Shown here: piece by piece, positions 4,681 through 63,139 of the stretch
Numbering within the stretch: position 1 is the stretch's first letter
How the letters are laid out: each line of letters opens with the position of its first letter
Assembly: GCA_016209685.1 (NCBI GenBank)
Contig: JACQVQ010000005.1
Coordinates: forward strand, 150,655-214,654
Origin: Planctomycetota bacterium
GTDB taxonomy: Bacteria; Planctomycetota; Brocadiia; Brocadiales; Bathyanammoxibiaceae
Reading direction: 5' to 3'
Length of the DNA stretch: 64,000 bases
Notes under the pieces: generated by a model
What the model was told of the DNA's origin: nothing
The model's input: the letters and a program-made list of their open reading frames with translations, nothing else
Databases searched by the model: none
Translations under genes and position numbers: made by a program

Positions 4681-6831
4681 GTGTTCCGCCACCTGGATGG
4701 ATATGGAGAAGTCGTGCATCGGCCTGAACCGCCAGGGGACGGTATAGTCCTGAGTGTCTGCCCCCACGACTGCCCGGACACCTGCAGTATCCTATCCCAC
4801 GTGAAGGGGGGCAAGCTAGTAAAAGTGAAGGGAAACCCCCAACACCACGTGACCAGGGGTTTCCTCTGTCCAAAGGTGAGGCACTATCCAGAAAGGGTCT
4901 ATAGCCCGGAACGGGTGTTATATCCCATGAAGAGGGTAGGCCCGAGAGGCTCAGGCCGCTTCCAGAGGATTTCGTGGGAAGAGGCCGTGGAGACCATTGC
5001 CTCCCGCTGGAAGGCTATTATCGCCAGGGAGGGCCCAAGGGCCATACTCCCCTATTACGGTTCTGGAACCCTGGGGATGGTGCATGGAAAACTGGCGGGG
5101 AAACGGTTCTTTAACCGCCTGGGAACGCTACAGCTTGACCGTACCATATGCACCAAGGCGGGACGGATTGGCTACCTCTACACCATGGGTACCTCGGAAG
5201 GGGCGGACCCAAGGGGCATCCCCTATTCAAGACTTGTCATAGCCTGGGGGACTAACACCTTTTCCACCAACGTACACCAACTACCCTTCCTCAGAGAGGC
5301 CAGGAGAAAGGGCGCCCTCTATGCCGTGGTGAACCCGTTTAGGGTAAAAGGGGCAGAGGTGGCGGATTTGTTCCTCCAGCCAAGGCCCGGCAGTGATGCG
5401 GCCCTGGCCCTCGGCATGATGCACATAATAATCAAGGAAGGACTCTTTGACAGGGACTTCGTCTCCCACTCCACCTCTGGTTTTGAGGAACTGCAGAGAC
5501 GGGTAGAGGAATATCCCCTGGAGCGAGTAGAGAAACTCACGGACATAGAGGCCCAAAAGATACGGGAATTTGCCAGGCTCTACGCCAGTAGTAAGCCCTC
5601 TTTTATCTATGTGGGTTCAGGCTGTCAGCATCATACTAATGGTGGCATGACCCTGCGGACGCTATCCTGTCTACCTGCCCTAGTGGGGACGTGGGGGAGG
5701 CCAGGCGGTGGTATCTTCTTCCCTACCAGCACTATATTTCCGGTGGACTGGGACTACCTGGAGGGGGAGGACCTGAGGCCCAACCCTCCGGCCTCATTTA
5801 ATATGAACAGCCTGGGCGAAATCCTCACGAATGGTAACCCCAGGATTAGCAGTCTTTATGTGTTCAATGCCAATCCTATGGCCGTACTATTTAACCAGAA
5901 CAGGTTGTTGACCGGGATTCTCAGGGAAGACCTCTTTACCGTAGTACATGAATTGTTCTTTACCGATACTGCGCATTATGCCGACATGGTTCTGCCGGCC
6001 ACTACCCAATTTGAGCAGGTAGACCTCCATGCCTCCTACTACCACCTCAGCCTCCAGCTCAACCAGCGGGCCATAGAACCCCTTGGGGAATGCAAGTCAA
6101 ATCTGGAGACCTTTAACCTCCTGGCCAGGGCAATGGGCCTTGAAGACCCCTGTTTTAAGCAAGACAGTTGGGACGTAATTGAGGAGATGCTGTCTACCAG
6201 GCACCCCGCCCTGGAAGGCATAACTCTGGAAAGACTCATTAAAGAAGGTCACGCCCCACTTAACCTTGAGATACCTTACGTGCCTTTTAAGGCTTGTAGT
6301 GAACTAGACAAATCTGACGGGCGATTTCCCACCCCTTCAGGGAAGATAGAATTTTACTCCCAAAAGATGGAAGCCGAGGGCCTTGACCCATTACCCACCC
6401 ACATACCGTTAAAGGAGGGTAGGGAGACTACGCCCTGGCTCTACGAAAGGTATCCACTCTATCTCCTCACCCCGTCAGCCCACTCCCTCTTGAACTCCAA
6501 TTTCGCCAGCGACCCCTGGCTGCACGGTAGGGGCACGTTGCAACGTGCCCCTACTATAGTTATTAACCCTGAGGAGGCCGCCTCAAGGGGTATAAAGGAT
6601 GGGGACCTCGTAAGTGTCTTTAACGACAGGGGCAGTTGCCTCCTCTGGGCCTCTGTGGAGGATAGGGTAAGGCCAGGGGTGGTGGTGAGCCTGGGCCAGT
6701 GGTGGAGCCGCCACTGCCCAGGAGGTAAGAACGCAAACCATACCACCCCGGACTTCCTCGCAGACATGGGTGGAGGCTCGGCCTTCAACACCAATCTGGT
6801 GCAGGTAGAAAAAACCCTGTGGAACGCTTAG
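4681..6831 (+). CDS. Molybdopterin-dependent oxidoreductase (DMSO reductase/formate dehydrogenase family)
   Basis: CPHDCPDTCSI...GFLCPKV Fe-S motif and C-terminal molydopterin dinucleotide-binding domain; contains an in-frame 28-bp palindrome. Confidence 0.85.
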   Translation: MFRHLDGYGEVVHRPEPPGDGIVLSVCPHDCPDTCSILSHVKGGKLVKVKGNPQHHVTRGFLCPKVRHYPERVYSPERVLYPMKRVGPRGSGRFQRISWEEAVETIASRWKAIIAREGPRAILPYYGSGTLGMVHGKLAGKRFFNRLGTLQLDRTICTKAGRIGYLYTMGTSEGADPRGIPYSRLVIAWGTNTFSTNVHQLPFLREARRKGALYAVVNPFRVKGAEVADLFLQPRPGSDAALALGMMHIIIKEGLFDRDFVSHSTSGFEELQRRVEEYPLERVEKLTDIEAQKIREFARLYASSKPSFIYVGSGCQHHTNGGMTLRTLSCLPALVGTWGRPGGGIFFPTSTIFPVDWDYLEGEDLRPNPPASFNMNSLGEILTNGNPRISSLYVFNANPMAVLFNQNRLLTGILREDLFTVVHELFFTDTAHYADMVLPATTQFEQVDLHASYYHLSLQLNQRAIEPLGECKSNLETFNLLARAMGLEDPCFKQDSWDVIEEMLSTRHPALEGITLERLIKEGHAPLNLEIPYVPFKACSELDKSDGRFPTPSGKIEFYSQKMEAEGLDPLPTHIPLKEGRETTPWLYERYPLYLLTPSAHSLLNSNFASDPWLHGRGTLQRAPTIVINPEEAASRGIKDGDLVSVFNDRGSCLLWASVEDRVRPGVVVSLGQWWSRHCPGGKNANHTTPDFLADMGGGSAFNTNLVQVEKTLWNA
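4695..4730 (+). repeat. Direct repeat copy 2 at gene junction
   Basis: ggatggatatggagaagtcgtgcatcggcctgaacc. Confidence 0.95.
6527..6554. repeat. Family A palindrome, in-frame in Mo-oxidoreductase
   Basis: gtaggggcacgttgcaacgtgcccctac, perfect 28-bp palindrome; reads RGTLQRAPT. Confidence 0.95.
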
Positions 6832-8597: not shown

Positions 8598-8687
8598 ACC
8601 AGGGGCCAGGGGTCAGAGGCCAGGGATCAGCAATCTTTTCCCCCAATCTCTGTTCCCTGACCCCTGTCCCCTGATTTTGGGGTGGTA

Positions 8688-8753
8688 AGCCCTGGTGGCG
8701 GAGCACCAGGGCTATAGCATTGGGGCTCTGCCCCCAATGCTCCGCCTCAGGCA
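8688..8753. repeat. Family B bipartite palindrome, intergenic
   Basis: agccctggtggcggagcaccagggctatagcattggggctctgcccccaatgct followed by a family C-like motif. Confidence 0.9.
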
Positions 8754-11226: not shown

Positions 11227-12233
11227 AGAGCATCCCGGCCGAAGTTAATCCCTTTCCTGCAAAAGGCTTCCAAAATTTGAAGTTGGCCCTCCTCTTGATG
11301 GGACTGGCAGGCTTTGCCTTCCTCCTATACAAGTTAGATGCCTCGGCCGTTTACGCAGATATCCGCATGTTAGGCATGTGGAAATTTCTCATAATACTAA
11401 TACCCTACACGATAGTCTTCGTCCTGGATACAATGGGATGGAGGTATGCCCTGAAAGACCTGACCCCAGACCTCAAGTTTGTTGGACTCTTTGCCGCCAG
11501 GATGGCCGGGGAATCTATAAACTGCCTCACCCCCTCCGCCTACCTGGGAGGAGAACCTCTTAAGGCCTATTTGCTAAAGACTTATAACGTCTCAACGATA
11601 GACGGTATGGCCTCAGTAGTAATCTCCCGTACGATAATGACCCTGGCCCAGGTGGTCTTCGTACTCATTGGGGTTGCCCTGGCCTTTTCCAGACTCAAAG
11701 ATACAAATTCCTTGCTGGCCATTACGGCTCTTACATTACTCCTGGGAATACCGCTTACCGGCATGATAATCGTTAGCCGGAAAAAGGGGCTTTTTACCGC
11801 CACCTTGAACCTCCTCAGGAGGTTCGGGATACACATCCGCTTCCTGGAAAAAAGGGCTGGCAGGCTCAAAGAACTGGACGACACCATAGCCGAGTTCTAC
11901 AGCACCAACAGAAGGGGATTCTACCTCTGCTTCCTCTTTTACTTCCTCGGGTGGCTGGCGGGGATGCTAGAGGTGTATCTAATACTGAACTTTCTCGGAG
12001 TACCTATAGACCTGACCAATGCGTTTATCATAGAGGCCCTCTTCACCGTGGCAAGGAGCGTATCCTCCTTCATCCCGGGAAGCCTGGGAGGACAAGAAGG
12101 GGGCGTACTGCTAGTCTTCCTGGCCCTCTCCCTCACCGCCCAGGTAAGTATGTCCTTTTGCATTATAAGAAGGATAAGAGAGGCCCTGTGGGTTGGGGCA
12201 GGGCTGGTAGTCCTGGCCAAGTGGCAGGCATGA
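11223..12233 (+). CDS. Lysylphosphatidylglycerol synthase TM/flippase-like integral membrane protein
   Basis: Multi-TM; LTPSAYLGGEPLKAYLLK and IPGSLGGQEGG motifs. Confidence 0.75.
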   Translation: MKSIPAEVNPFPAKGFQNLKLALLLMGLAGFAFLLYKLDASAVYADIRMLGMWKFLIILIPYTIVFVLDTMGWRYALKDLTPDLKFVGLFAARMAGESINCLTPSAYLGGEPLKAYLLKTYNVSTIDGMASVVISRTIMTLAQVVFVLIGVALAFSRLKDTNSLLAITALTLLLGIPLTGMIIVSRKKGLFTATLNLLRRFGIHIRFLEKRAGRLKELDDTIAEFYSTNRRGFYLCFLFYFLGWLAGMLEVYLILNFLGVPIDLTNAFIIEALFTVARSVSSFIPGSLGGQEGGVLLVFLALSLTAQVSMSFCIIRRIREALWVGAGLVVLAKWQA

Positions 12234-12359
12234 CCTAACTTCCTTTCATTTGCCGTCACAGTCTGCAATCTTCGCGTCTATATCCCCACCAGGGCTTAGG
12301 GGCTAGTAGCTCGTAGCCGGGGGGAGAAATTGCCTCGCAATGACAACACGACTATTTGC

Positions 12360-14117
12360 CTACCCAGGCTGGTTGGATATGAGGTGTATCCGCCTGTGGC
12401 CCACTGCGGCAGAGAGTAGATTGTAGACAGGAACCTTACTAGCCCCCTTCAAGGCGGCCAGTTGTGCATCCCCGATAATACAAAACACCCTCTCGCCCTT
12501 TGCTGATGGTGACCCTGCCCTGAATCGTCCCTTCTCCGCCTGAGGCGGACTCAAGGGCAGGTCTGGTTCAGGGCCAAGAAACTCTTCCAGCGCCCCCTGG
12601 TCGCTGAAGGTCTTTAACCGCCTCTTTGTATAGAACAAATAGGGCCCAATCTGGTGATACCCTATGCCGAAAATCCCTAGCGGCCTTTCTTTTACAACCC
12701 TTACGGCCTCCTGGCAAAAGGGCCTGGCAGAATTGCGGGGATTCAACTCCTTCTGGACAAAGGCGTGGTAATAGAATAATAGCAGCGAAAGGCCCACGAG
12801 GAGGGATATGAAGGCGGTCCACCGTTGGCGGAAATGGCCCTCCCGTCCGCCGTAGAGGAGTCCGAGGAAGAAAGACCCGCCCAGGAGGGTCAAGAAACTG
12901 CTGAGGGGGACAAACAGGGAGAGGTATTCGGGATATCTTTTTTTAACGAACCATAGCCCCAAGACCCCGACAAGGAGCATACACCCCGACATCACCCCTC
13001 CAGGTATCAGGACCCACCTCTTGTATGAGAGACACCCCTTGTTCAGAGTGCGGAATGTGGAATGCGGAGTGCAGAGTTCTTCCCAGAACCTCCCCACCAT
13101 CAGGGCCAGTGCGGGCATCATCGGTAAGAGGTACTTGGCCTGTTTAGCCTGGGCCAGGCTGAAGAAACAGAACATTACCACGGCCCAGGCCAGGAGGAAG
13201 TCCCTCTGAGGTCTCTCTTTCCCATTGAGAAACAGCAGATACACGGCGGATGGGAGAAACACCACCCAGGGGGAGAACTCCCAGGGCAGGTTCCAGAGGT
13301 AGTAATAAATGGGTTGCTTATGGCTCCAGGTCTCCAGGAACATCTGGAAATTGTGCTTGAGTATAAGCTCCCTGGTAAAATCAGCCCCTCCCCTACTGTA
13401 AGAGGCCAGATACCAGGGTATGGATACCACGAAGACTGCCACGATATAGAGGATTAGCCTGCGGTTAAGAAACTCTTTAATCCGCCCCTGGAGGGCAAGG
13501 AAGAGGGCGATTGTCAAGGAGGGGAGGATGATGGCCATAGGCCCTTTGGTAAGTACGCCCAGGCCCATACAGAAGGAGCCCAGGAGTAGGGGCACGTTGC
13601 AACGTGCCCCTACCGTGGGATTTGTGTAGCCATAATAAAAAAGGCTTAAAGATAGAGTAACAAAGGCACAGAGGAGCATATCCACCTGTACCCATCGTGC
13701 CTGGTGGAAATATATGGGGGTGGTAGCCAGCACCAGGGCTGAGAATAGGGCGGTCCTCCTATTACCATAAAGGGTCTTCCCCAGCCAATACGTGGCCAAT
13801 ACCCCAGCTAACCCCCCCAGGGCGGAAGGGAGTCGGGCAGTGACCTCTGTAACCTTCCCCAGGGGGAGGGATATTATTGCCACGGCCCAGTTAAAGAGGG
13901 GGGGTTTTTGGGCAGTGGGCTGGTCGTTCATCCTGGGTATTACCCAGTCGCCTGTATCAAGCATCTCCTGGGATATCTGGGCATACTCCCCTTCATCGGG
14001 GGCCCACAGGTCTCTCCCTCCCAGGTTAAAAAAGAATAGTACGATACACAGGGAGACAAGGAGGGCTATGCAGGGGCGGTCACTTTCAAATAACTCTTCT
14101 ATTGTTCCATTACCCAT
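12360..14117 (-). CDS. ArnT/PMT-like glycosyltransferase (GT83 family), paralog 1
   Basis: GGRDLWAPDEGEYAQISQEM...PPLFNWAV; carries several repeat insertions. Confidence 0.82.
   Translation of the reverse strand: MGNGTIEELFESDRPCIALLVSLCIVLFFFNLGGRDLWAPDEGEYAQISQEMLDTGDWVIPRMNDQPTAQKPPLFNWAVAIISLPLGKVTEVTARLPSALGGLAGVLATYWLGKTLYGNRRTALFSALVLATTPIYFHQARWVQVDMLLCAFVTLSLSLFYYGYTNPTVGARCNVPLLLGSFCMGLGVLTKGPMAIILPSLTIALFLALQGRIKEFLNRRLILYIVAVFVVSIPWYLASYSRGGADFTRELILKHNFQMFLETWSHKQPIYYYLWNLPWEFSPWVVFLPSAVYLLFLNGKERPQRDFLLAWAVVMFCFFSLAQAKQAKYLLPMMPALALMVGRFWEELCTPHSTFRTLNKGCLSYKRWVLIPGGVMSGCMLLVGVLGLWFVKKRYPEYLSLFVPLSSFLTLLGGSFFLGLLYGGREGHFRQRWTAFISLLVGLSLLLFYYHAFVQKELNPRNSARPFCQEAVRVVKERPLGIFGIGYHQIGPYLFYTKRRLKTFSDQGALEEFLGPEPDLPLSPPQAEKGRFRAGSPSAKGERVFCIIGDAQLAALKGASKVPVYNLLSAAVGHRRIHLISNQPG
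12513..12574. repeat. Family H element with nested family C palindrome, in-frame in GT83 paralog 1
   Basis: ccctgccctgaatcgtcccttctccgcctgaggcggactcaagggcaggtctggttcagggcc; cf. 48958-49010. Confidence 0.88.
13586..13613. repeat. Family A palindrome, in-frame in GT83 paralog 1
   Basis: Same 28-mer as 6527-6554; reads VGARCNVPL. Confidence 0.95.
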
Positions 14118-14190
14118 CCGCTACGCTCAAGATAAGTTTTAGGGCAGGTGCAAGTTGAAAAATCCGCCGTGTTTTGGGCGGGACCTGCCC

Positions 14191-14583
14191 CTACAAGGGG
14201 GTATCCCCCCGCCCAAAAGATGGCGAATTTTCAACTTTAACCCCTTGTTTCTTTTCTTTATGTATGAGTACCAGGTTACGGATATATATGAGGCTACCGC
14301 CGCTGTAGCCGAGGATAAAGATAGGGTCCTGGCGGTGGAGGGCGTAGAAGAGGAGCATGAGACTCCCCACAATACTCATGTACCAGAAGTAGACGGGTAT
14401 AATACTTTTACCCATCTTTTCTGAGGCAATCCATTGTATCACGAAACGGCCCATGAAGGTGAATTGCCCTACCAGGCCCAGCACTAGCCAAAAATCAGGC
14501 CTGAAGTTCACTATCCAGGGCCAAACGACGCTCGCAATTTCCATAGTCCCGCTTAATCCTCCTGGGAAATCAATTGTTCGCAA
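14191..14583 (-). CDS. Lipid A biosynthesis N-terminal domain (LABN-like) membrane protein
   Basis: GQFTFMGRFVIQWIASEKMGKSIIPVYFWYMSIVGS; C-terminus and stop codon come from a repeat element. Confidence 0.8.
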   Translation of the reverse strand: MRTIDFPGGLSGTMEIASVVWPWIVNFRPDFWLVLGLVGQFTFMGRFVIQWIASEKMGKSIIPVYFWYMSIVGSLMLLFYALHRQDPIFILGYSGGSLIYIRNLVLIHKEKKQGVKVENSPSFGRGDTPL

Positions 14584-14647
14584 AGATAATGTAGTAGAAG
14601 CATACAGAAAATCGTTTAAATTTCAAAAAGTTATCCGTTGCAACAGC

Positions 14648-15373
14648 TTATCTTCCTTCAACAACCAATACTTTTGTCGTCTTTTTCAATAAGCCTATTA
14701 AGATATAGGTGAACAATGCGAAAGGAAACATTACTTCCCAGGGTAAATCCAATACGAATTTACCTTGAGCAATCCTTTCTTCAATAACATCTATAAAGGT
14801 GAACACTGCAACTATTATAAAAAAGAGAGAATACTCCTTCTTGATACCAGCTTTAAGAGAGAATGGCAAACTCGGCGATTTCCAATTCTTGAATTTAGGT
14901 AAAATACAGGGGGTTTCTTCGGCCCATTCCAAAAATGTATTACCCCATTTCCCCCTTAAAAAACCTTCCTCGGTGAGCATTATCCTTTCATAACATAGCC
15001 AGTAAAGTAAAATGGTTATAAGGGTAAACCACCAGCACAGAACTGATAAAGATATTCCAAGCAAAATAAGGAAATTACCCAAGTAAAGCGGATGCCTAAC
15101 AATAGAGTACATCCCTGTGGTGTTCAAGACATCGGAAACCTGTTTTTCTGTATTCCGACTAGATGTCCTTCTGGGTGTACAGCCTATAGTATAGATGCGG
15201 ACGCCTAAGCCCAAAAGAGAGATACCTAGACAACCTATCTCCCATATATGACCGGGATACGCAAAGTTCCTCACAGCTGGGAGAAACAACATGACTAGAA
15301 GTAAAGGCACCAGAGAACCTCTATATCTAAAAAGCCAGCTCCCTTCCTTTGCAAGTTGTTCTCTTAATTCCAT
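14648..15373 (-). CDS. Isoprenylcysteine/phospholipid methyltransferase-like membrane protein
   Basis: GMYSIVRHPLYLGNFLILLG...YERIMLTEEGFLRGKWGNTFLEW. Confidence 0.75.
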   Translation of the reverse strand: MELREQLAKEGSWLFRYRGSLVPLLLVMLFLPAVRNFAYPGHIWEIGCLGISLLGLGVRIYTIGCTPRRTSSRNTEKQVSDVLNTTGMYSIVRHPLYLGNFLILLGISLSVLCWWFTLITILLYWLCYERIMLTEEGFLRGKWGNTFLEWAEETPCILPKFKNWKSPSLPFSLKAGIKKEYSLFFIIVAVFTFIDVIEERIAQGKFVLDLPWEVMFPFALFTYILIGLLKKTTKVLVVEGR

Positions 15374-15387
15374 CCCTTTAGTTTTAC

Positions 15388-17010
15388 CTATGGCAAATTT
15401 GAGACCAGTACAAACCTTGCCTTGTGAAGACCCTGGAGTTCCGCTACTTTGAATAGAGGGACCCTCCCTGTAGAGGTCAGCCCATTATAATCCGCCTCTG
15501 CCATAAGGCAATAGACCTTTTCCGGAGGGCCCAAGAAAGAAACGATTTCTTCCTCAGAAGAGATGACCTTGGGATGGGACTTAGTATAGTAGACCTGGGC
15601 GGGTCTGAAGATTCTGTACACAGCCCAGGGGGCGCCTGGTTCCATAAGCCCCTTCAATTCCTCACAATAGGCCCTCTCTGACCGATTTTCCTTCTCCCAG
15701 GGGAAGAGAAACCTGTTATAGGACATCTGGAAGCTGGAGGTGATGAGGAACGTAAAGACGAAGAGCACCTCCCACTGCTTATCCCTGAAAATCTGCCGTA
15801 CTGCAAGAGAAAGACTGAGGAACCCCACACCCATTGCCCCAATAATAAGATAAGAAAGGACTAGCTTATGGGTATGTAGTCCGAAGAATATCCAGGCAGA
15901 GAAGAGGCCAAGAAAGGGGGCCAGGCCCCAGCAGAGAGCCCCTTTAATAGACGTCCACTCCCTCAGGGCGGGGCGTCGTATGTAGCCCCCGCAAAAATGG
16001 GCCAAGATGAGGGCCACGGCAGGGTACAGGGGGAGGGTGTACCTGCTAAATTTCTGAAGGATTATAGAAAAAGTAATGAGTATCACAAAGAGCCACGTCC
16101 ATATGAAGTCCCTCTGAGGTCCTTTAGTCTGCTCCTTCCAATAGGCGTAGAAGGCAAAAGGGAGGAGGATAGACCAGGGTGAGCCATCCACAAATATCCC
16201 AGAGAAATAAAAGAGGAATTTATCAACCCCCAGGGGGGTAGTTACCTGGGAATTAAATTGCCCAAAGAGCCCCTCCATATAGGACCTTCCTACCGTTAGA
16301 TAGGCCGGGAGTAGCCACAGGGTTATGGGGGCTGCTGATAAGAAAAGTCCCAGGACGGGCCTGGTCTCCAAGAATAGTCTCAACTCCCCCCTCCTCCAGA
16401 GAAAGACCAGCACTGTAGCGCCTACCAGGATGAAGGCTATCGGGCCTTTTTCTGTAATAGCGGCCAACCCCAATAGAACCCAGCCCCAGAGGAAATAGCC
16501 CCTTTTTTTCTCTGGTTCGGAGTATCCGAAATAAAAGGCCGTTAATGCGGCCGTAATAAAGAAGGTGAAGGGGACGTTCAGCCTGGCCATACAGCTAAAG
16601 CTATGGAATTGGGGTAGCGTGGCCAGGATTGCCGCACCTAAGAAACCCGTGTCAGCGTCAAAGAGTCTCTTCCCCAGGGAGTAGGTTAGCAACATGGTCC
16701 CCAACCCGAAGAGACAGGCCGTAAGCATTGCAATAAACGGCGTAACGTCACCGTGGGGCAGGCTGAGGAGGGCCTCTGACCAGAAGTACAGGGGTGGCTC
16801 CCCATAATAGGGGGCTCCGTTAAGATGGAGGGCGAACCAATGCCCGTCCAGTAGCACCTCTCTGGCCACCTGGGCGTATTTAGGCTCGTCTGTCCCCGTA
16901 AGGTCTCTCCACCACAAGTTGGGGAGGTACAGTACTGCCCATATAGCTATCGTCAGGAGTACATAAGAACGGTTGCTTCCCGTAATAAATCTTCTCCTGT
17001 TTCCTGTCAC
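15388..17010 (-). CDS. ArnT/PMT-like glycosyltransferase (GT83), paralog 2
   Basis: WWRDLTGTDEPKYAQVAREVLL, PPLYFWSEALL. Confidence 0.82.
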   Translation of the reverse strand: MTGNRRRFITGSNRSYVLLTIAIWAVLYLPNLWWRDLTGTDEPKYAQVAREVLLDGHWFALHLNGAPYYGEPPLYFWSEALLSLPHGDVTPFIAMLTACLFGLGTMLLTYSLGKRLFDADTGFLGAAILATLPQFHSFSCMARLNVPFTFFITAALTAFYFGYSEPEKKRGYFLWGWVLLGLAAITEKGPIAFILVGATVLVFLWRRGELRLFLETRPVLGLFLSAAPITLWLLPAYLTVGRSYMEGLFGQFNSQVTTPLGVDKFLFYFSGIFVDGSPWSILLPFAFYAYWKEQTKGPQRDFIWTWLFVILITFSIILQKFSRYTLPLYPAVALILAHFCGGYIRRPALREWTSIKGALCWGLAPFLGLFSAWIFFGLHTHKLVLSYLIIGAMGVGFLSLSLAVRQIFRDKQWEVLFVFTFLITSSFQMSYNRFLFPWEKENRSERAYCEELKGLMEPGAPWAVYRIFRPAQVYYTKSHPKVISSEEEIVSFLGPPEKVYCLMAEADYNGLTSTGRVPLFKVAELQGLHKARFVLVSNLP

Positions 17011-17013
17011 CTG

Positions 17014-17790
17014 TTACCTGTCTCCTTGCTTTCGTTTCTCAACAATGCCCTTGATTATAATAGTGTGTCCTTTAACAAACCTGGACAGCAATAGGTCTTC
17101 AAGGCGTGATATTTTATACATGAAAGGGAAGATAATGTAACGGTATAATTTAAAAAAGAAAGACCTGTCTGCGTCCCGGAGGCTTGCCTGGGAGGTATAA
17201 TCCTTCTTGACTAGAAACAGCATGAGCTTTAACGCCTCCAAGAATACCTCTCCCAATAGAGTAACGGCATACCGCACCTCCACCACCCTTACGTTGTGCC
17301 TCTCTAAAAGTCCCTTTAAATCGTCTAAGGTGTAACCGTTTCTAACGTGGTACTCTGGCGAACCCTTCTCCGAGTGAAAGAGTCTGTGGAGTCGGGTACT
17401 GCTTAGCAGGCCGTCTCTGGAGGGGACGGAAATGACCAGCAAGGACTTATCCCTTGCTATCCTGCAGAGTTCACTGATTACCCTCTCGTCCTCTTCTACA
17501 TGCTCAAGGACGTCTGCCAGGAGGGCCTTCTCTATTGTATTATCCTTAATGGGGACGTCCGTAACGCTCCCGCAAATAAACGCAGCGGGCACGTTATCCC
17601 TGGCGAGGCCAAGAGAACGCCTGTCGGTATCAATCCCGCAGCACCGTGCCCCATTCTCGGCAATCCTCTCGGTAAAATAACCCGCCCCACAGCCCAGGTC
17701 CAGGATGCACTCCCCCTCTTTTGGCTCAAGCATCTCCAACAGGTGTGGCTCCCTTAATCTTGCGTATAAGGAATAGGTATGGGGGTTCAT
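17014..17790 (-). CDS. Class I SAM-dependent methyltransferase
   Basis: ILDLGCGAGYFTERIAENGARCCGID. Confidence 0.82.
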   Translation of the reverse strand: MNPHTYSLYARLREPHLLEMLEPKEGECILDLGCGAGYFTERIAENGARCCGIDTDRRSLGLARDNVPAAFICGSVTDVPIKDNTIEKALLADVLEHVEEDERVISELCRIARDKSLLVISVPSRDGLLSSTRLHRLFHSEKGSPEYHVRNGYTLDDLKGLLERHNVRVVEVRYAVTLLGEVFLEALKLMLFLVKKDYTSQASLRDADRSFFFKLYRYIIFPFMYKISRLEDLLLSRFVKGHTIIIKGIVEKRKQGDR

Positions 17791-17811
17791 CTGGTATCAC
17801 TATTGAGAAAA

Positions 17812-17862
17812 ATTGCAAATTGTAAATTTAAAATTTTAAATTTCCAATTCACAATTTACAAT
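17812..17862. repeat. Family E AT-rich inverted repeat
   Basis: ttgcaaattgtaaatttaaaattttaaatttccaattcacaatttacaatg. Confidence 0.85.
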
Positions 17863-17870
17863 GTTTTTCC

Positions 17871-19499
17871 TTAAGGCCTGTTGGAGAGGAGGAGGAGCTT
17901 ACCCCCATACTTGCCCGGCCTCTGAAACTCCTTTACCTTATAAACATTTGTCTTATTAACATCGGCCTCTGACCCCAGAGAGGGGAGGGCCTCTTCATCC
18001 GTAAGGCAATAGACCCTCTCACTGGAAGAGAAGAAGTTCAAAAGCCCCTCTCTGGAAGAGAGCTCCTTAACCCTGCCTTTCATGTACCAGACGTAATCTT
18101 GATTAAATGATTGGTAAGTGGTCAGGGAGGCGCCTGGCTCCATGACCTGTAGTATCTCCTGGCAGAGGGCCCTTTCCTGTCCAGCATGGCTCTCTCTGGG
18201 CAAGACGAGCTGGCAATAGGTGGTCTCAAAGGCCATGGCAAAGAGGAAGAGACTGCCAAAGAGCACCATGTATTGGCGGGACCAGAGGGCGAGGAGCATC
18301 AAGGCCAGGACGCATAACCCCACCAGTAACACTATCCAGCTTACGGGCAGTCCAGCATAGACTAGCCCCAGGAATGAACCCCCGCAAAAACCAAAGGCGA
18401 GGACCGTGGCCCACCTCTCCCACGTCCATAGGGGGGCGGCCCTGGATATGTAATAGTTCCACAGGGTCCCCAGCATCAAGGCCAGCGCCGGGTAGAGGGG
18501 CAGGAGGTACCGGCTCCTCTTTTCCATACTGATGGAAAAGAGGATGAAGGTGGCCAGAAACCATACCGCTGGGAATCGCAGGGGATCCCTCTCCTCTGCC
18601 TTGCTCCTCTTCCAGTAGGCATACAGGCCAATAAGTATGAGAGACCATGGGAGCGTCCCTGCCAGGACCTCCCTCGTATAAAAAACGGGTTTAAAGAGGT
18701 TGGCAGGTTTGCCTACGTGGTATTTAAAGTGCCCCACCAGGCCCCCCGTATAACTTATACCTCCATACAACTGGGCCGGGAGGAGCCAGCATAGTAAGAG
18801 GGAAACGAAGAGGAGGCCGCCAAGGAATGGCTCCATCTCCCTCCATCGGTAGAGTTCCCTTCGGCTAAGGAGGTAGAGGCCCAACACCGGAGGGATGATG
18901 AGGATACCAATGCCCTTAGTGAAGACGGATAGGGCAAGGAAGGCCCATCCCCAGAGGAAATACCATCTCTTGCCCCGTACCTTATTGGTACAGGGCTTGT
19001 GAGACGCAGAATCAAGGCCAAAATAGAAGCAGGCCAGGCTGGCAGTGACGAAGAAGGTCAAGAGCATCTCCAGTTTGGCCACACAGGCATACTTCTGGAA
19101 CTCGGGACTGCTGGCCAGGATAAGCCCCGCCAGGAAGCCTCCCCCCGCACCGATGAGTACCTCACCTAGAGAGAAGACCACAAGCACGGTACCTATGGCC
19201 GCCAGGGCAGAGGGCAATCTAAGGGTAAATTCCGTTACGTCCCCCCAGGGCTTACTTAACAGGGCTATCACCCAGAAGTACAGGGGCGGTTTGTTGAAAT
19301 ATATCTCCCCATTAAAGTGGGGCACAATCCAATTCCCCTGGAGTGTCTCCCTGGCCACCTGGGCGTAGAGGGTCTCCCTCCCTGCCCAGAGGTCCCTCCC
19401 CCCAAGATGGGGGAGATACAGGGTCAGACATATCACCACCAGTGCGAGCTTTAGCGATAGCACTCTGGAAAAACTCTCTCTAATATAGGCAAATCTCAT
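17871..19499 (-). CDS. ArnT/PMT-like glycosyltransferase (GT83), paralog 3
   Basis: GGRDLWAGRETLYAQVARETLQ, KPPLYFWVIALL. Confidence 0.82.
   Translation of the reverse strand: MRFAYIRESFSRVLSLKLALVVICLTLYLPHLGGRDLWAGRETLYAQVARETLQGNWIVPHFNGEIYFNKPPLYFWVIALLSKPWGDVTEFTLRLPSALAAIGTVLVVFSLGEVLIGAGGGFLAGLILASSPEFQKYACVAKLEMLLTFFVTASLACFYFGLDSASHKPCTNKVRGKRWYFLWGWAFLALSVFTKGIGILIIPPVLGLYLLSRRELYRWREMEPFLGGLLFVSLLLCWLLPAQLYGGISYTGGLVGHFKYHVGKPANLFKPVFYTREVLAGTLPWSLILIGLYAYWKRSKAEERDPLRFPAVWFLATFILFSISMEKRSRYLLPLYPALALMLGTLWNYYISRAAPLWTWERWATVLAFGFCGGSFLGLVYAGLPVSWIVLLVGLCVLALMLLALWSRQYMVLFGSLFLFAMAFETTYCQLVLPRESHAGQERALCQEILQVMEPGASLTTYQSFNQDYVWYMKGRVKELSSREGLLNFFSSSERVYCLTDEEALPSLGSEADVNKTNVYKVKEFQRPGKYGGKLLLLSNRP
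18970..18997. repeat. Degenerate family G palindrome in GT83 paralog 3
   Basis: tgccccgtaccttattggtacagggct. Confidence 0.65.
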
Positions 19500-19585
19500 C
19501 TCAGTTGTCAGTCTTCAGTTGTCAGTCTTCAGACAACCGACCACTGCCTACCCCCTACTCCCTACTCCCTACCCCCTACTCCCTA

Positions 19586-21187
19586 TTACGGCCTATTGGA
19601 GACAAGGACAAAAGAAGGGGGGCCTTTCTCCCTGGGATTGGGAATTTCGGCCACCTTGTAGACCGATGCCCCTAACCCCCTGTAATCTGCCTCACCCAGG
19701 AGGCAATAGACCTTCTCCCTGGAGGAGAGAAGGGCCGTGAACTGCTCTTCCATGTATATACTACCTGGAAAGGTGTGGGTGTAATAGGTAAATGAGGGAC
19801 GATAATACTTATACACGGCCCACTTAGCCCCTGGTTCCATAATACCTAGTAGCTTCTGACATAAGGGCCTGTCAGAATTGGCGTTGTTCTGTAACGGCAG
19901 GAGAAACTGGCAATAAATCGCTTGATAGACGGACAGGACGAGCAAGATGACCCCAAAGAGGAGCTTCACCTGCGAGGCCCTGTAAGCCAGGTATACGGCT
20001 ATCAGCATACCTGCAACGACTAGAGAGAGGCCCAGGGCGGGATAGGGGAGCCGTCCCCCTTCAAACAAGGCCACCGCCACACCCGTCAAGGCGGCGATTA
20101 CAAGGACAGGCAGGCACTTTTGCCAGGACCATAAAGGAGGGCTCTTTGCCCAGTAGCCCTCCCACATCTGGGCCACCATCAGTGCCCCCGCCGGATAAAT
20201 GAACAAGATATATCTGCCGTGCTTGGTGCTAAGGAGACTAAATGCAATAAGGCCGACCAGTAACCAGAGAACAGGCAACGGGGATAAAGGTTTTCCTATT
20301 CCCTGTCCCCTGTCCCCTGTCCCCTGTTCCCTGTCTCTTGTCTCCTTATAGTATGAGTACAGGACCAGTGGTATAAAGATAGACCAGGGGGCCATGCTGA
20401 CCAGGAATTGGGGGAGATAGAAGTAGAAACTCTCAACGTGGTATTCCTCCTCCTTCAGGTACCATACCCCCCAGTTAAACAGGCCATTGAGGTAAGGCCC
20501 TGCCTTAAAATAAACAGGGACTAGCCAGAGGCATATAGTGCCAAAGAACACCAAGGCTCCCAGGAGAGGGAGGGTCTCCTTCAAGCGGTGTAACTCTTTT
20601 CTGAAGACCATGTAAGAGGACAGGGTAAGGACAATAATAAGTGGATAGACGGGCCCTTTTACCAGGCAGGAGAGGGCGGCAGAAAACCAGCCCAATAGAA
20701 ATAACCACCTCCTGGAGGTAGCAAGCCCTATATAGAAGCTGGCCAGGCTCAGGGTAAAAAAGAAGGCCACTGGCACGTCTATCCTTACCATGCAAGCAGA
20801 CCTGAAGAACCCAGGGGAGCTCAGGAGTATCAGGGCGGCCAGGAGTCCCGCCCGTTCGTTCAGCAGGGCCTTGCCCAGGAAGTACACTACGATTACCGTG
20901 CCCAGTGCGGCAAGGGCTGAAGGGAGGCGGGCGGTAAATTCCGTAACATCTCCGACAGGCAGACTGGCCAGGGCCATAAGCCAAAAGTACAGGGGGGGCT
21001 TTTCATTGTAGAGACCGCCATTGAAGTGGGGTACTAACCACCCCCAAGAGGTGGAGTGGAGGGCCTCTCTGGCCACCTGGGCATATTCCGTCTCTACGGT
21101 GCCCCAGAGGTCTCTGTTCCCCAATGCAGGCAGATAAAGGACAAGGCATAGGGAGGATAACAGCAGTACCCGGTGACTATCTCTCAT
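19586..21187 (-). CDS. ArnT/PMT-like glycosyltransferase (GT83), paralog 4
   Basis: GNRDLWGTVETEYAQVAREAL, KPPLYFWLMALAS. Confidence 0.82.
   Translation of the reverse strand: MRDSHRVLLLSSLCLVLYLPALGNRDLWGTVETEYAQVAREALHSTSWGWLVPHFNGGLYNEKPPLYFWLMALASLPVGDVTEFTARLPSALAALGTVIVVYFLGKALLNERAGLLAALILLSSPGFFRSACMVRIDVPVAFFFTLSLASFYIGLATSRRWLFLLGWFSAALSCLVKGPVYPLIIVLTLSSYMVFRKELHRLKETLPLLGALVFFGTICLWLVPVYFKAGPYLNGLFNWGVWYLKEEEYHVESFYFYLPQFLVSMAPWSIFIPLVLYSYYKETRDREQGTGDRGQGIGKPLSPLPVLWLLVGLIAFSLLSTKHGRYILFIYPAGALMVAQMWEGYWAKSPPLWSWQKCLPVLVIAALTGVAVALFEGGRLPYPALGLSLVVAGMLIAVYLAYRASQVKLLFGVILLVLSVYQAIYCQFLLPLQNNANSDRPLCQKLLGIMEPGAKWAVYKYYRPSFTYYTHTFPGSIYMEEQFTALLSSREKVYCLLGEADYRGLGASVYKVAEIPNPREKGPPSFVLVSNRP
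20297..20346. repeat. CCCTGTC heptamer array in-frame in GT83 paralog 4
   Basis: ttccctgtcccctgtcccctgtcccctgttccctgtctcttgtctcc; reads ETRDREQGTGDRGQGIG. Confidence 0.9.
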
Positions 21188-21908
21188 CCAGTTCCTCTAC
21201 AACCTCGTAATCTATGCGTCTGTTCTGCATCCACTTTACGGCCAGGAGGTCTACCAGGAATTTGAAGAGGCGGTTTCTGATATTGTATTTGGACTCACCG
21301 AACTTCCTGGGGAAGTGGGAGATGGGTATCTCTATCACCTTAAAACCCTCCATCCGGCAAAGGGTGGGGTAGAAGCGGTGGAGACCTTTGAATAGTTTGA
21401 CCTTCTGTACCACCTCGCGGCGCATGACCCTGAGGGGCGAACCTGCATCCCTGGCATTATCTCCCATAATCACCTGCCTGAGGGTATTGCCGCCCCAGGA
21501 CACAAGACGCCTCAGCCACTCATCTTTTCTTTCGGCCCTCAGCCCCCAGGCCACGTCGTATTCTTTCAGTTTTTCCAGGAGGCCGGGTATATCCTTTGGG
21601 TCACTCTGGAGGTCGGCATCCATGGCCACTATCATGTCTCCCCTGGCGGCCTTAAAGCCCGCCTCCAGGGCTGCTGACTCCCCACAGTTCTTTTTGAACC
21701 GAATAACCCGCACGTGCGGGTTATTGGCACGCAGTTCTTTCATCACCCCCCAACTCCTGTCCGTACTGGCGTCGTCCACAAAGATTACCTCGTAAGGCCG
21801 ATTCAAGCCCTTGAGGACTGGCAGGAGACGAGAGAGGAGTTCTCCAAGGCTATCCGCCTCGTTATGTACAGGGAACACTACAGATAGATTTTTACGGGAG
21901 ACGTCCAT
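21177..21908 (-). CDS. GT2 family glycosyltransferase (dolichol-phosphate mannosyltransferase/ArnC-like)
   Basis: VVFPVHNEADSLGELL, VIFVDDASTDRSW, MDADLQSDPKDIPGLLEKL. Confidence 0.85.
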   Translation of the reverse strand: MDVSRKNLSVVFPVHNEADSLGELLSRLLPVLKGLNRPYEVIFVDDASTDRSWGVMKELRANNPHVRVIRFKKNCGESAALEAGFKAARGDMIVAMDADLQSDPKDIPGLLEKLKEYDVAWGLRAERKDEWLRRLVSWGGNTLRQVIMGDNARDAGSPLRVMRREVVQKVKLFKGLHRFYPTLCRMEGFKVIEIPISHFPRKFGESKYNIRNRLFKFLVDLLAVKWMQNRRIDYEVVEELDER

Positions 21909-21923
21909 TATCAGAACCTATTG

Positions 21924-22041
21924 TAGAATGCGGAGTGTGGATTGCGGATTACGGAATTCTGAGTGCAGAATTATTCCGCATTCTGCATTCCGCAATCCGC
22001 ATTTGGAATAATTCCGCACTCGGAACGCATTCCGAAATCCT
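21924..22041. repeat. Family D array, intergenic
   Basis: gaatgcggagtgtggattgcggattacggaattc...attccgcactcggaacgcattcc. Confidence 0.9.
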
Positions 22042-22108
22042 AACTCCAAATTCACCATTGTCCGCCTCAGGCGGCATGCCTGAGGCACGACAATATGCCC
22101 CTACTAAC

Positions 22109-23233
22109 CTAACTGATATGGACTCTAATGGCCTCCGCCACTGCCTCTACTTGTTCCACCCGCATCTCAGGGTAAAGGGGAAGGCTGAGTACCTTTGACG
22201 TGGCCTCCTCCGCCATGGGGAAAGTACCCTTAGGAAGGCCCAAATGGGCATAGGCCGGCTGGAGGTGGAGTGGGAGGGGATAGTGGATACCAGTCTGGAT
22301 ACCCATCTCCTTCAGTTTCTTTTTCAACCCATCCCTGTTTTCTACCTTTATGGCGTAGATATGATACACGTGCCTTACCCCGTGGAGTACCCTGGGTATG
22401 GTTACCCCTTGTACAGGGGATAGGAGTACGTCGTATTGCCTTGCCCTCTCCCTCCTCTTTTCGTTCCAGCCTTCCAGGTATTTCAGTTTAATGGACAGGA
22501 TGACCGCCTGGATGGCGTCCAATCGGCTGTTATATCCTTCAATCTCATGGATGTATTTTTCCTTCCTGCCATGGTCTCTTAGCATACGGACCTTCTCCGC
22601 TATGAGCGGGTCGTTAGTAACCACTGCCCCCCCATCCCCGTAGGCCCCCAGGTTCTTGGAGGGATAGAAACTGAAACAGGCCGCCTCGCCCAGGTTTCCT
22701 ACCCGTACTCCCTTGTATTCGGCACCGTGGGCCTGGGCGGCGTCCTCAATCAACCTCAGCCCGTAGCTCATGGCAAGCTCCTTGAAGGCATCCATATCGG
22801 CAGGTTGGCCGTACAGGTGCACCGGTATGATGGCCTTGGTCCTGGAGGTTATGGCCTTCTTGACCTTTTCCGTATCCAGGTTATATGTCTCGGGGTTAAT
22901 ATCGGCAAAGACCACCTTTGCCCCGGCAAGGCCAATGGCCTCGGCAGTAGGGGCCGCAGAGTTGGGGGCGGTAATCACCTCGTGACCCGGTCCAATCCCC
23001 ATGGCCCTGAGGGCAAGGATGAGGGCGTCCGTACCATTGGCTACCCCCACGGCGTATCTGGCCCTGCAAAAGCTGGCAAAGGACTCTTCAAACTCCTTCA
23101 CGTACTTACCGAGGATAAAGGCCCCTTCTTCAATCACCTTCCTTATGGAGGAGTGTACCTCTTCCTGGATACCCTGGTACTGGGTCTGCAGGTCTACTAG
23201 CTGTATCTTCTCCATTACTATGGTGTTCCTCAT
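22109..23233 (-). CDS. DegT/DnrJ/EryC1/StrS-family aminotransferase
   Basis: GVANGTDALILALRAMGIGPGHEVITAPNS, EDAAQAHGAEYKG, SFYPSKNLGAYGDGGAVVT. Confidence 0.9.
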   Translation of the reverse strand: MRNTIVMEKIQLVDLQTQYQGIQEEVHSSIRKVIEEGAFILGKYVKEFEESFASFCRARYAVGVANGTDALILALRAMGIGPGHEVITAPNSAAPTAEAIGLAGAKVVFADINPETYNLDTEKVKKAITSRTKAIIPVHLYGQPADMDAFKELAMSYGLRLIEDAAQAHGAEYKGVRVGNLGEAACFSFYPSKNLGAYGDGGAVVTNDPLIAEKVRMLRDHGRKEKYIHEIEGYNSRLDAIQAVILSIKLKYLEGWNEKRRERARQYDVLLSPVQGVTIPRVLHGVRHVYHIYAIKVENRDGLKKKLKEMGIQTGIHYPLPLHLQPAYAHLGLPKGTFPMAEEATSKVLSLPLYPEMRVEQVEAVAEAIRVHIS

Positions 23234-37393: not shown

Positions 37394-38661
37394 GTATGAT
37401 ACCTGGCGTTAATGGTCACGTACTTCTCAGAGAGGTCACAGGTCCAGACCTCGGCCTCTGCGCGGCCCAGCCCCAGTTCCAGCCGTAAATCTAGTTCTTT
37501 TCCTTGCATAATGTTTTTGAGCATTGGGGGCAGAGCCCCAATGCTATAGCCCTGGTGCTCCGCCACCAGGGCTTGGATAGGGCTGGCCACAGACGTTCCT
37601 CCCTCAAAAATTAACGACTCGCCAATATATAGCCTGAGCCTTTTTTCGTCAAGGGTAATACCCGTGGCCCCTGCCGCAGATATGATTCGGCCCCAGTTGG
37701 GGTCCTCCCCGTTTATGGCTGTCTTTACCAGGGGAGAGTTGGCAATGGCCCGTGCGATAACCCCGGCCTCTTTTTCCTTCTTAGCCCCTTTGACTATAAC
37801 CCTTACGAACTTGGTGGCCCCCTCGCCGTCCTTTACGATGGCCCTGGCCAGCACCTGGCAGAGGTGTCCAAGGGCCTCCTGGAAGGCGGTCAGGTCTCTG
37901 CCTCTAAGGCATGGCCCCCCACTGGCCCCATTTGCCATGAGGATTACCGTGTCATTGGTGCTCATGTGTCCGTCAATGGTAATCTGGTTGAAGGAGCGAC
38001 TCACTGCCCTCTGTAGACACGCCTTTGACTGTCTCCTGGTGAGCGTGGCATCGGTGGTGATAAAGGCGAGCATGGTAGCCATATTGGGGGCTATCATCCC
38101 TGCCCCCTTTGCCGCCCCTCCAAGGGTGATGGTACGGCCCCCTGTGTCTATCTTCAGCGCAAGCTCCTTGGGGCTGGTATCGGTGGTCATAATCGCCCTG
38201 GTAAACGACCTGCCGTGCTCGGGGTCCCTGCTCATCTTCTGACCGGCCTCTCTTATCCCTGCAAGTATCTTTTCCATGGGAAGCGGTTGACCTATGATGC
38301 CCGTGGAGGCCACAAGGACTTCGGAGGGGGAGAGGCCGAGTTCCCTGGCCGTGGCCTCTGCCATTGCCATGGCGTTGAGGTGGCCCTGGGCACCTGTGCA
38401 GGCGTTGGCGTTACCGCTATTTACTACCACTGCCCTGATGGGTCCCCTCTTGACGGTCTCCCTGCTCAATCTTACCGGGGCGGCCACTATCTGGTTGGTA
38501 GTAAAGAGGGCCGCCGCCCGGGCGGGGCGGTTGGATAGCAGGAGGGCCAGGTCGTAGCCCCCTTGTTTAATGCCACAGGCGCAGGCCCCGGCCAGGAAGC
38601 CAGAGGGTGCCACCACGCCACCAGAAACTTCTTGTATATTGTCTTTAGACATAGATAACAT
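37390..38661 (-). CDS. argJ: Bifunctional ornithine acetyltransferase/N-acetylglutamate synthase
   Basis: VVVNSGNANACTGAQG, GAAKGAGMIAPNMATMLAFITTDA, DPNWGRIISAAGATG. Confidence 0.92.
   Translation of the reverse strand: MLSMSKDNIQEVSGGVVAPSGFLAGACACGIKQGGYDLALLLSNRPARAAALFTTNQIVAAPVRLSRETVKRGPIRAVVVNSGNANACTGAQGHLNAMAMAEATARELGLSPSEVLVASTGIIGQPLPMEKILAGIREAGQKMSRDPEHGRSFTRAIMTTDTSPKELALKIDTGGRTITLGGAAKGAGMIAPNMATMLAFITTDATLTRRQSKACLQRAVSRSFNQITIDGHMSTNDTVILMANGASGGPCLRGRDLTAFQEALGHLCQVLARAIVKDGEGATKFVRVIVKGAKKEKEAGVIARAIANSPLVKTAINGEDPNWGRIISAAGATGITLDEKRLRLYIGESLIFEGGTSVASPIQALVAEHQGYSIGALPPMLKNIMQGKELDLRLELGLGRAEAEVWTCDLSEKYVTINARYHT
37521..37574. repeat. Family B palindrome in-frame in argJ
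   Basis: agcattgggggcagagccccaatgctatagccctggtgctccgccaccagggct; reads ALVAEHQGYSIGALPPML. Confidence 0.92.
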
Positions 38662-47654: not shown

Positions 47655-47717
47655 TATTGCAAATTGGAAATTGCAAATTTCAAATTTAGAATTTCCAATT
47701 TTCAATTTACAATTCTT
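47655..47717. repeat. Family E AT-rich inverted repeat
   Basis: attgcaaattggaaattgcaaatttcaaatttagaatttccaattttcaatttacaattc. Confidence 0.85.
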
Positions 47718-57613: not shown

Positions 57614-57626
57614 AGCCTAAAAACAT

Positions 57627-57666
57627 TGTAAATTGGAAATTGGAAATTTAAAATTTGAAATTTACA
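57627..57666. repeat. Family E AT-rich repeat
   Basis: tgtaaattggaaattggaaatttaaaatttgaaatttac. Confidence 0.85.
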
Positions 57667-57741
57667 GAAGCCCCCTATCCTCTCGGCGTTCTGGAGGAGC
57701 TTGTACTGGCCTTTATCTTGATAAACGTAATCTTTTTTCAT
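57667..57741 (-). pseudogene. Truncated extra copy of the 5' end of ORF 56501..57613
   Basis: MKKDYVYQDKGQYKLLQNAERIGG vs MRKDYVYQDNKGQYRLLPNATRMGN. Confidence 0.85.
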
Positions 57742-63043: not shown

Positions 63044-63139
63044 AGGTCTTTCTGCGTCAAAAAGACCTTCGGGCCTCTTGGAATCCTGTCCGCCTTAGGC
63101 GGATGGAACCTTCGGTTACCGTTTCTCAGGAATCAGGGA

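Follow-up and report, generated by a model that had tools for sequence, protein, structure and literature searches.

Four related glycosyltransferase genes lie side by side in the window, the stretch of 64,000 nucleotides analysed here, and the first of them, paralog 1, was predicted from the sequence to carry several repeat insertions in its reading frame that its three siblings lack. The question is whether mobile repeats have indeed entered a working gene, and whether the siblings can serve as an internal control. We compared the window genome (G000, 2.02 Mb) with two congeners found by a genome search, G001 and G002, and with more distant relatives. The kinship given by this search, same genus, puts the window genome, an uncultured relative of the anammox bacteria, in 2-12-FULL-52-36, a genus placed in the family named Ca. 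Bathyanammoxibiaceae of the order Brocadiales (PMC9723696). The gene cluster is as follows.

12360-14117, minus strand: paralog 1, predicted ArnT-fold (GT83/PMT-like) glycosyltransferase bearing the insertions (Pfam, AlphaFold model, dN/dS)
15388-17010, minus strand: paralog 2, insert-free in the window genome
17871-19499, minus strand: paralog 3, with a 27-bp hairpin insertion in the window genome
19586-21187, minus strand: paralog 4, with a CCCTGTC heptamer array in the window genome

The host gene

The open reading frame of paralog 1 is intact (585 aa). It matches the Pfam PMT profile with E 1e-22 and also PMT_2, its sequence matches the ArnT of Cupriavidus (5ezm) with E 3e-35, and its AlphaFold model (mean pLDDT 86) has ArnT 5f15 as the best PDB match (TM 0.73/0.78). 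Profile matches and predicted fold together assign the product to the PMT/ArnT glycosyltransferase superfamily. It is not recognised as ArnT proper, the L-Ara4N transferase, scoring 191 bits against the equivalog cut-off of 567 bits of NF009784. Outside the inserts, dN/dS is 0.09-0.17 among the congeners and 0.11-0.14 to G006 and G005; thus the decorated gene is under purifying selection. The search of window positions 12000-22300 for known structured RNAs, such as introns and riboswitches, gave no Rfam match above the gathering score.

With an identity of only about 30% each to paralog 1, paralogs 2-4 are weak controls, the decisive ones being the orthologs in G002 (92% identity), G001 (91%), G006 (78%), G005 (62%), G004 (54%) and G007 (53%). 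The protein alignment covers all six orthologs, the DNA alignment G000, G002, G001 and G006 only.

Insertion sites in paralog 1

Five insertion sites, S1-S5, were found within the gene, and a further element directly upstream of it.

13586-13613: S1, a perfect family A palindrome GTAGGGGCACGTTGCAACGTGCCCCTAC of 28 bp, encoding VGARCNVPL (ortholog alignment, copy count)
13469-13478: S2, empty in the window genome, GAAACTCTTT (alignment with G001 and G002)
13041-13078: S3, a TCCGCA/TGCGGA heptamer stretch, TPHSTFRTLN (alignment, repeat matches)
about 12825-12851: S4, a 21-bp insertion with GGCGGA/TCCGCC arms, YGGREGHFRQ (ortholog alignment)
12495-12575: S5, a nested composite FLGPEPDLPLSPPQAEKGRFRAGSPSAKGE of 81 nt, net +72 nt (24 aa) relative to the insert-free ortholog
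about 12517-12575: outer hairpin of S5, CCCTGAAcC/GGTTCAGGG, enclosing the family C palindrome
12535-12549: family C palindrome TCCGCCTGAGGCGGA, nested in S5, in the window genome only (congener alignment)
14133-14193: 61-bp element with ends TAGGGGCAGG...CCTGCCCTA, directly upstream of paralog 1 (congener alignment)

Repeat matches, set against control stretches, confirm that the segments are repeat-derived and in frame at all three places named originally. The extra residues, estimated at about 25, are the outer hairpin of S5 with its nested family C palindrome, the element announced in TVGARCNVPLL is the family A palindrome of S1, and the family D stretch TPHSTFRTLN is the heptamer stretch of S3. 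Sites S2, which is filled in both congeners, and S4, as well as the upstream element, are additional. The sequences of S1, S2, S3 and S5 belong to repeat families with other copies in these genomes; single-copy control stretches of paralog 1 match only themselves.

The claim of insertion into a reading frame is borne out by the orthologs. All five sites are empty in G006, G005, G004 and G007, and S1, S2, S3 and S5 vary between the two congeners and the window genome. The original prediction was to be abandoned if the segments proved conserved in ArnT homologs free of such repeats, and in the ortholog alignment they are not conserved there.

The palindrome of S1, in the context YTNP/TVGARCNVPLL, is present in G000 and G002 with a net gain of 9 nt. 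The G001 gene has ancestral-like QKAF codons in its place. Precise excision as the origin of the G001 state was rejected, as G001 retains these codons, which the palindrome displaced. At S2, which follows QGQI/QGRI, the 10 bp of the window genome are replaced in G001 and G002 by the 28 bp of GTAGGGGCACGG(C/G)GCGCCGTGCCCCTAC, net +18 nt. The heptamer stretch of S3 is in the opposite orientation in both congeners, is shorter in G001, and is absent from the outgroups. S4 is present in all three congeners and absent from the outgroups. The copy search in the sampled DNA of the genomes found no other copy of S4, and its assignment to a repeat family was rejected for lack of a second copy. The upstream element is present in G000 and G001.

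The sharing patterns conflict, S1 being common to G000 and G002, S2 to G001 and G002, and the upstream element to G000 and G001, so that some parallel insertion, loss or recombination is also needed. Site patterns are mosaic across the cluster, with counts of 213, 248 and 330 for the three possible groupings of the congeners. Lineages may have sorted incompletely or recombined, or insertions may have occurred in parallel.

Whether the inserts fall in loops was assessed on the predicted structure of an insert-free ortholog (pLDDT 90), with a mixed outcome. Four of the five sites map at most one residue from coil, and S1 maps near a tight helix-helix turn, with the alignment gap placed ambiguously, 6 residues away. 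Tested against random placement of the sites, P is about 0.07, and thus the preference for loops in the model is suggestive only.

The composite insertion S5

S5 precedes the final strands of the C-terminal domain, and its net length is +72 nt in G000, +63 in G002, +39 in G001 and 0 in G006 and beyond. The layers can be followed from genome to genome. The G001 gene has the outer CCCTGAACC-AGAAC-GGTTCAGGG hairpin only. In G002, the loop of the outer hairpin contains a 24-bp insert, and in G000, the middle of this loop insert is the TCCGCCTCAGGCGGA palindrome. Partial matches to S5 occur at 20 sites in the sampled DNA of G000 (about 455 kb) and at 35 sites in that of G001 (about 917 kb). The RNA folding z-score of S5 is -2.1. 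In the model of the window protein the segment is mostly of low confidence (pLDDT below 50 at residues 519-536), as expected of disorder.

Insertions in the other paralogs

The three-way alignment of the cluster (G000/G001/G002) did not uphold the notion that the siblings lack inserts. Two elements were found in them in the window genome itself.

18973-18999: hairpin of 27 bp inserted into the S1-equivalent loop of paralog 3 (empty sites in the congeners)
about 20295-20343: CCCTGTC heptamer array in paralog 4, encoding REQGTGDRGQG (alignment, repeat match)

Because two of the three siblings have repeat insertions of their own, the gene cluster of the window genome provides no internal control. 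Paralog 2 is the only sibling for which the claim stands, and it stands in G000 only, its orthologs in G001 and G002 being filled. Each of the four paralogs has been hit in at least one of the three congeners. Inserts in the S1-type loop occur in paralog 1 (G000 and G002), paralog 2 (G001 and G002), paralog 3 (G000 only), and paralog 4 (G002, palindrome A). Paralog 1 has an insert at the S5-type position, and so, by independent events, does paralog 2 of G001, G002 and G006. The hairpin of paralog 3 has clean empty sites in G001 and G002.

At window position 21183 both congeners have a 140-bp insertion. Here the end of a glycosyltransferase gene (21177-21908) overlaps the start of paralog 4, and a 14-bp duplication CTGGATGAGAGATA, intact in G001, preserves both the stop and the start.

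Repeat families in the genomes

The window genome has 44 exact copies of the 28-mer of family A; allowing up to three mismatches gives 69, and the reversed-pattern control none. The general form GTAGGGGC-N12-GCCCCTAC occurs 125, 111 and 156 times in the three congeners, G000 having 125 copies. In 58 other Brocadiales genomes it has from 0 to 59 copies (59 in G004, 30 in G006, 0 to 24 in the rest), with zero matches to the reversed-pattern controls in all genomes. The exact element is absent from 120 other genomes drawn across the phylum. Among the 12-nt cores in the sampled DNA, 101 of 121 are perfect palindromes, with about ten different sequences.

Family A copies are under-represented in ORFs, with 30 of 61 copies in G000 where about 51 are expected, and 50 of 124 in G001 where about 102 are expected. 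The 63 copies inside ORFs of at least 150 aa are read as VGA... (39) or RG... (24) and never in the phase that reads TAG, although the open frame partly follows from the choice of ORFs. Ten palindrome-bearing genes were checked against Pfam, and these include PheT, a fused AroD-AroE, Lnt, AddA- and AddB-like helicase-nucleases, and a molybdopterin oxidoreductase.

The AddB-like gene (L182:5562-8939) and the AddA-like gene (the next ORF), both with counterparts in L126, contain several family A palindromes each, three and three in G001, which echoes the published intragenic REPs in repair genes. Two further families were observed in the window. A 56-bp double hairpin (AGCCCTGGTGGCGGAGCACCAGGGCTATAGCATTGGGGC...) forms a 100% identical inverted pair at 8687-8742 and 37519-37574, 28.8 kb apart, and has additional diverged copies. 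The AT-rich AATTGGAAATTTAAAATTT family, of about 60 bp, occurs at 663-724, 17805-17866, 47656-47717 and 57625-57686, several copies having 61-85% identity.

Junctions, nesting and core exchange

About 190 kb of G000/G001 synteny and 20 kb of G000/G002 yielded 50 clean comparisons of indels of at least 12 bp, a few of which are the same site in both congeners; 31 of the 50 are multiples of three. Insertion of family A is imprecise, target bases usually being missing at the filled sites. As the element has 28 bp, not a multiple of three, and target bases are usually lost, the net change in coding regions is a multiple of three between +9 and +30: the unshared coding sites differ by 9, 12, 15, 18, 21 or 30 nt.

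Direct repeats at the junctions are absent in some cases; in others they have 4 bp (CAAG at the paralog 3 hairpin), 5 bp (the upstream element, with one copy of CTTGT at the empty G002 site and two in G001), 7 bp (L111:549) or 14 bp (the 140-bp insertion at 21183). Such variation matches no single transposase.

Insertions at or next to the centres of palindromes were observed at L125:14147, L111:9105 and window position 63097. In a scan, about 15 copies of family A had complementary arms separated by longer inserts, one of which, of 24 nt, recurs. Several orthologous positions in G000 and G001 have the same outer arms with different cores (window position 6527, L111:2785 and L126:18101), and differences between species in the cores of orthologous palindromes are paired or near-paired. 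Tentatively, the conserved outer arms GTAGGGGC/GCCCCTAC might be a docking frame, inside which the core would be replaced or lengthened time and again as other palindromes are copied into the tip of the hairpin, but we regard this as doubtful. If true, layered, species-specific hairpins would evolve by core replacement, beyond insertion and decay alone.

Candidate RAYT genes

The window genome has three Y1_Tnp genes. Two of them pass the 80-bit cut-off of the NCBIfam profile for REP-associated tyrosine transposases, NF047646, with 198.7 and 83.4 bits, and the third, with 68.2 bits, falls below it. Both genes above the cut-off are flanked by GTAG-tagged palindromes. One, in L202 (G000:C9:113000-118500; ORF at about 2508-2993; G000:C9:115579), has GTAGCCGCAGGCTTTAGCCTGCG (family E), a stem-loop with a GTAG tail, on both sides in opposite orientations, as is typical of GTAG-REPs, and the same layout is seen in G002 (L205). 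The other is flanked by GTAGGGTGCGTC...GACGCACCC palindromes.

The third RAYT-like gene, in L201 (G000:C11:251500-257000), contains a GTAGGGGCAGGTTT/AAACCTGCCCCTAC palindrome inside its own ORF at 2701-2733 (IVGAGFKPAPT). This related palindrome, GTAGGGGCAGG, does not stand at the gene ends.

Family A flanks are found at none of the three RAYT-like genes of G000, and mobilisation of family A in trans is thus something that we infer. The link to RAYT is circumstantial, since the palindromes flanking these genes differ from the families in paralog 1.

Origin of the segments

On balance, we favour the explanation that the extra segments of paralog 1 are short REP-like palindromic mobile repeats without genes of their own, moved by RAYT in trans and inserted into a still-working gene, where the in-frame, tolerated copies survive. 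The segments are absent in the outgroups and vary among the three congeners, the repeats have dispersed copies, and the host gene is open and constrained. Judging from the sequences, filled and empty sites in close relatives show recent insertions that a working enzyme appears to tolerate. The hairpin would be mobilised as single-stranded DNA by RAYT (Y1/HuH REP-associated) transposases; most insertions into genes would be lost, leaving those that keep the frame in tolerant loops; and new palindromes could insert at the centres of old ones, or swap into them, via strand exchange at the hairpin tip or template switching. For the transferase itself the elements are probably without function. Evidence against this explanation is that the RAYT genes have palindromes of other families at their flanks, that the GTAG of family A pairs with CTAC, that junction repeats vary, that S4 is a single copy, that site sharing conflicts, and that the two heptamer-type inserts are tandem arrays rather than simple hairpins and may have a different way of spreading.

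It is possible, if rather unlikely, that no transposase is involved, and that host replication and repair copy palindromes by template switching and gene conversion between hairpins. Perfectly palindromic cores, nesting and core swaps would also arise in this way, and the different cores at orthologous positions, the paired or near-paired core differences, the insertions at exact palindrome centres, the replaced target DNA and the variable junction repeats all agree with it. However, whole elements of 27-28 bp were gained at palindrome-free sites (S1, S2 and paralog 3), RAYT genes are present, and template switching alone does not readily account for the repeated arrival of one element at unrelated sites.

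That the hairpins are retained as useful, through mRNA structure and expression or through an altered transferase, seems to us very improbable. The RNA folding is strong (z -5.7 for S1, z -6.7 for the paralog 3 hairpin), and the same two loops are hit recurrently in different paralogs; on the other hand, the same site differs or is empty between congeners, unrelated genes are also hit, and ORFs contain fewer copies than expected (30 of 61 against 51).

We give even less credit to the view that ordinary indels, or slippage during replication, filled permissive loops with segments that resemble repeats by chance. The single-copy S4 would fit, as would the arrays of short period at S3 and in paralog 4, which slippage could extend, but S1, S2 and S5 match many dispersed copies where control stretches match only themselves, and for these three sites the copy counts refute it. 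An artefact of assembly or binning is scarcely credible: although the assemblies of all three congeners are drafts in 14 to 370 contigs and repeats can be misassembled, independent assemblies agree on S1 (G000 and G002), S2 (G001 and G002) and the outer junctions of S5, and all frames are intact.

Comparison with known systems

GTAG-REPs are palindromes of 20-40 bp with many copies, a GTAG end, and sub-families that differ by complementary changes in the stem (Di Nocera et al. 2013, PMC3733652). Intragenic copies are documented, including those in recBCD/UvrD-type helicases and tRNA synthetases (PMC3733652). The repeats considered here are similar in being small multicopy palindromes with a GTAG end, in a genome with RAYT genes, with sub-families that likewise differ by complementary stem changes, and with copies in ORFs, in this case of AddA, AddB and PheT. 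Family A, as seen in S1 and S2, is a stem-loop of matching size and abundance (28 bp, 125 copies of the general form in G000). In contrast to canonical GTAG-REPs, in which GTAG is unpaired at one end of the stem, its GTAG pairs with the terminal CTAC in a fully symmetric 28-bp palindrome, and none of the three candidate RAYT genes in G000 is flanked by this same repeat. Other differences are that here several paralogs have been hit in the same loops, that palindromes sit at each other's centres, and that orthologous sites have exchanged their cores.

The intragenic repeats of R. conorii correspond to RPE-4 and RPE-6, and proteins bearing RPE-1 are reported to be expressed (PMC3733652). Rickettsia palindromic elements (RPE) likewise are palindromic repeats in frame in genes of varied function. 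They differ in belonging to another phylum, and family A has 28 bp and a symmetric core; this comparison is by description.

REPINs are non-autonomous palindromes whose movement is ascribed to RAYT transposases (PMC3116915). The likeness lies in the RAYT genes flanked by GTAG-tagged palindromes, and the difference in that the paralog 1 elements are single palindromes, not paired REPs, and that the RAYT genes found have other flanks than family A.

The small dispersed repeats (SDR) of cyanobacteria are very small mobile repeats at many sites. Their likeness to the paralog 1 elements, by description, is a lead only. The behaviour of in-frame intragenic palindromes, that is, an empty ortholog and a filled gene with the frame kept, is seen here. 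The part of the literature that was covered contains no earlier description of the element sequences or of the nested palindromes.

Peptides such as VGARCNVPL or RGTLQRAPT in these proteins should be annotated as translated mobile DNA, not as protein domains. The way in which REP-like palindromes spread is not settled, mostly because few insertions can be dated. This cluster has filled and empty sites of several families in the same genes of three close species and outgroups, so that one can see directly how junctions look, what target is lost, how frames are filtered and how elements nest. The phenomenon in paralog 1 is real, and its general kind, intragenic REP-like palindromes, has been described before. 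Its less familiar sides are how many families one gene contains, the hot loops common to paralogs, the nesting at centres, the exchange of cores at orthologous sites, and the imprecise, target-replacing insertion.
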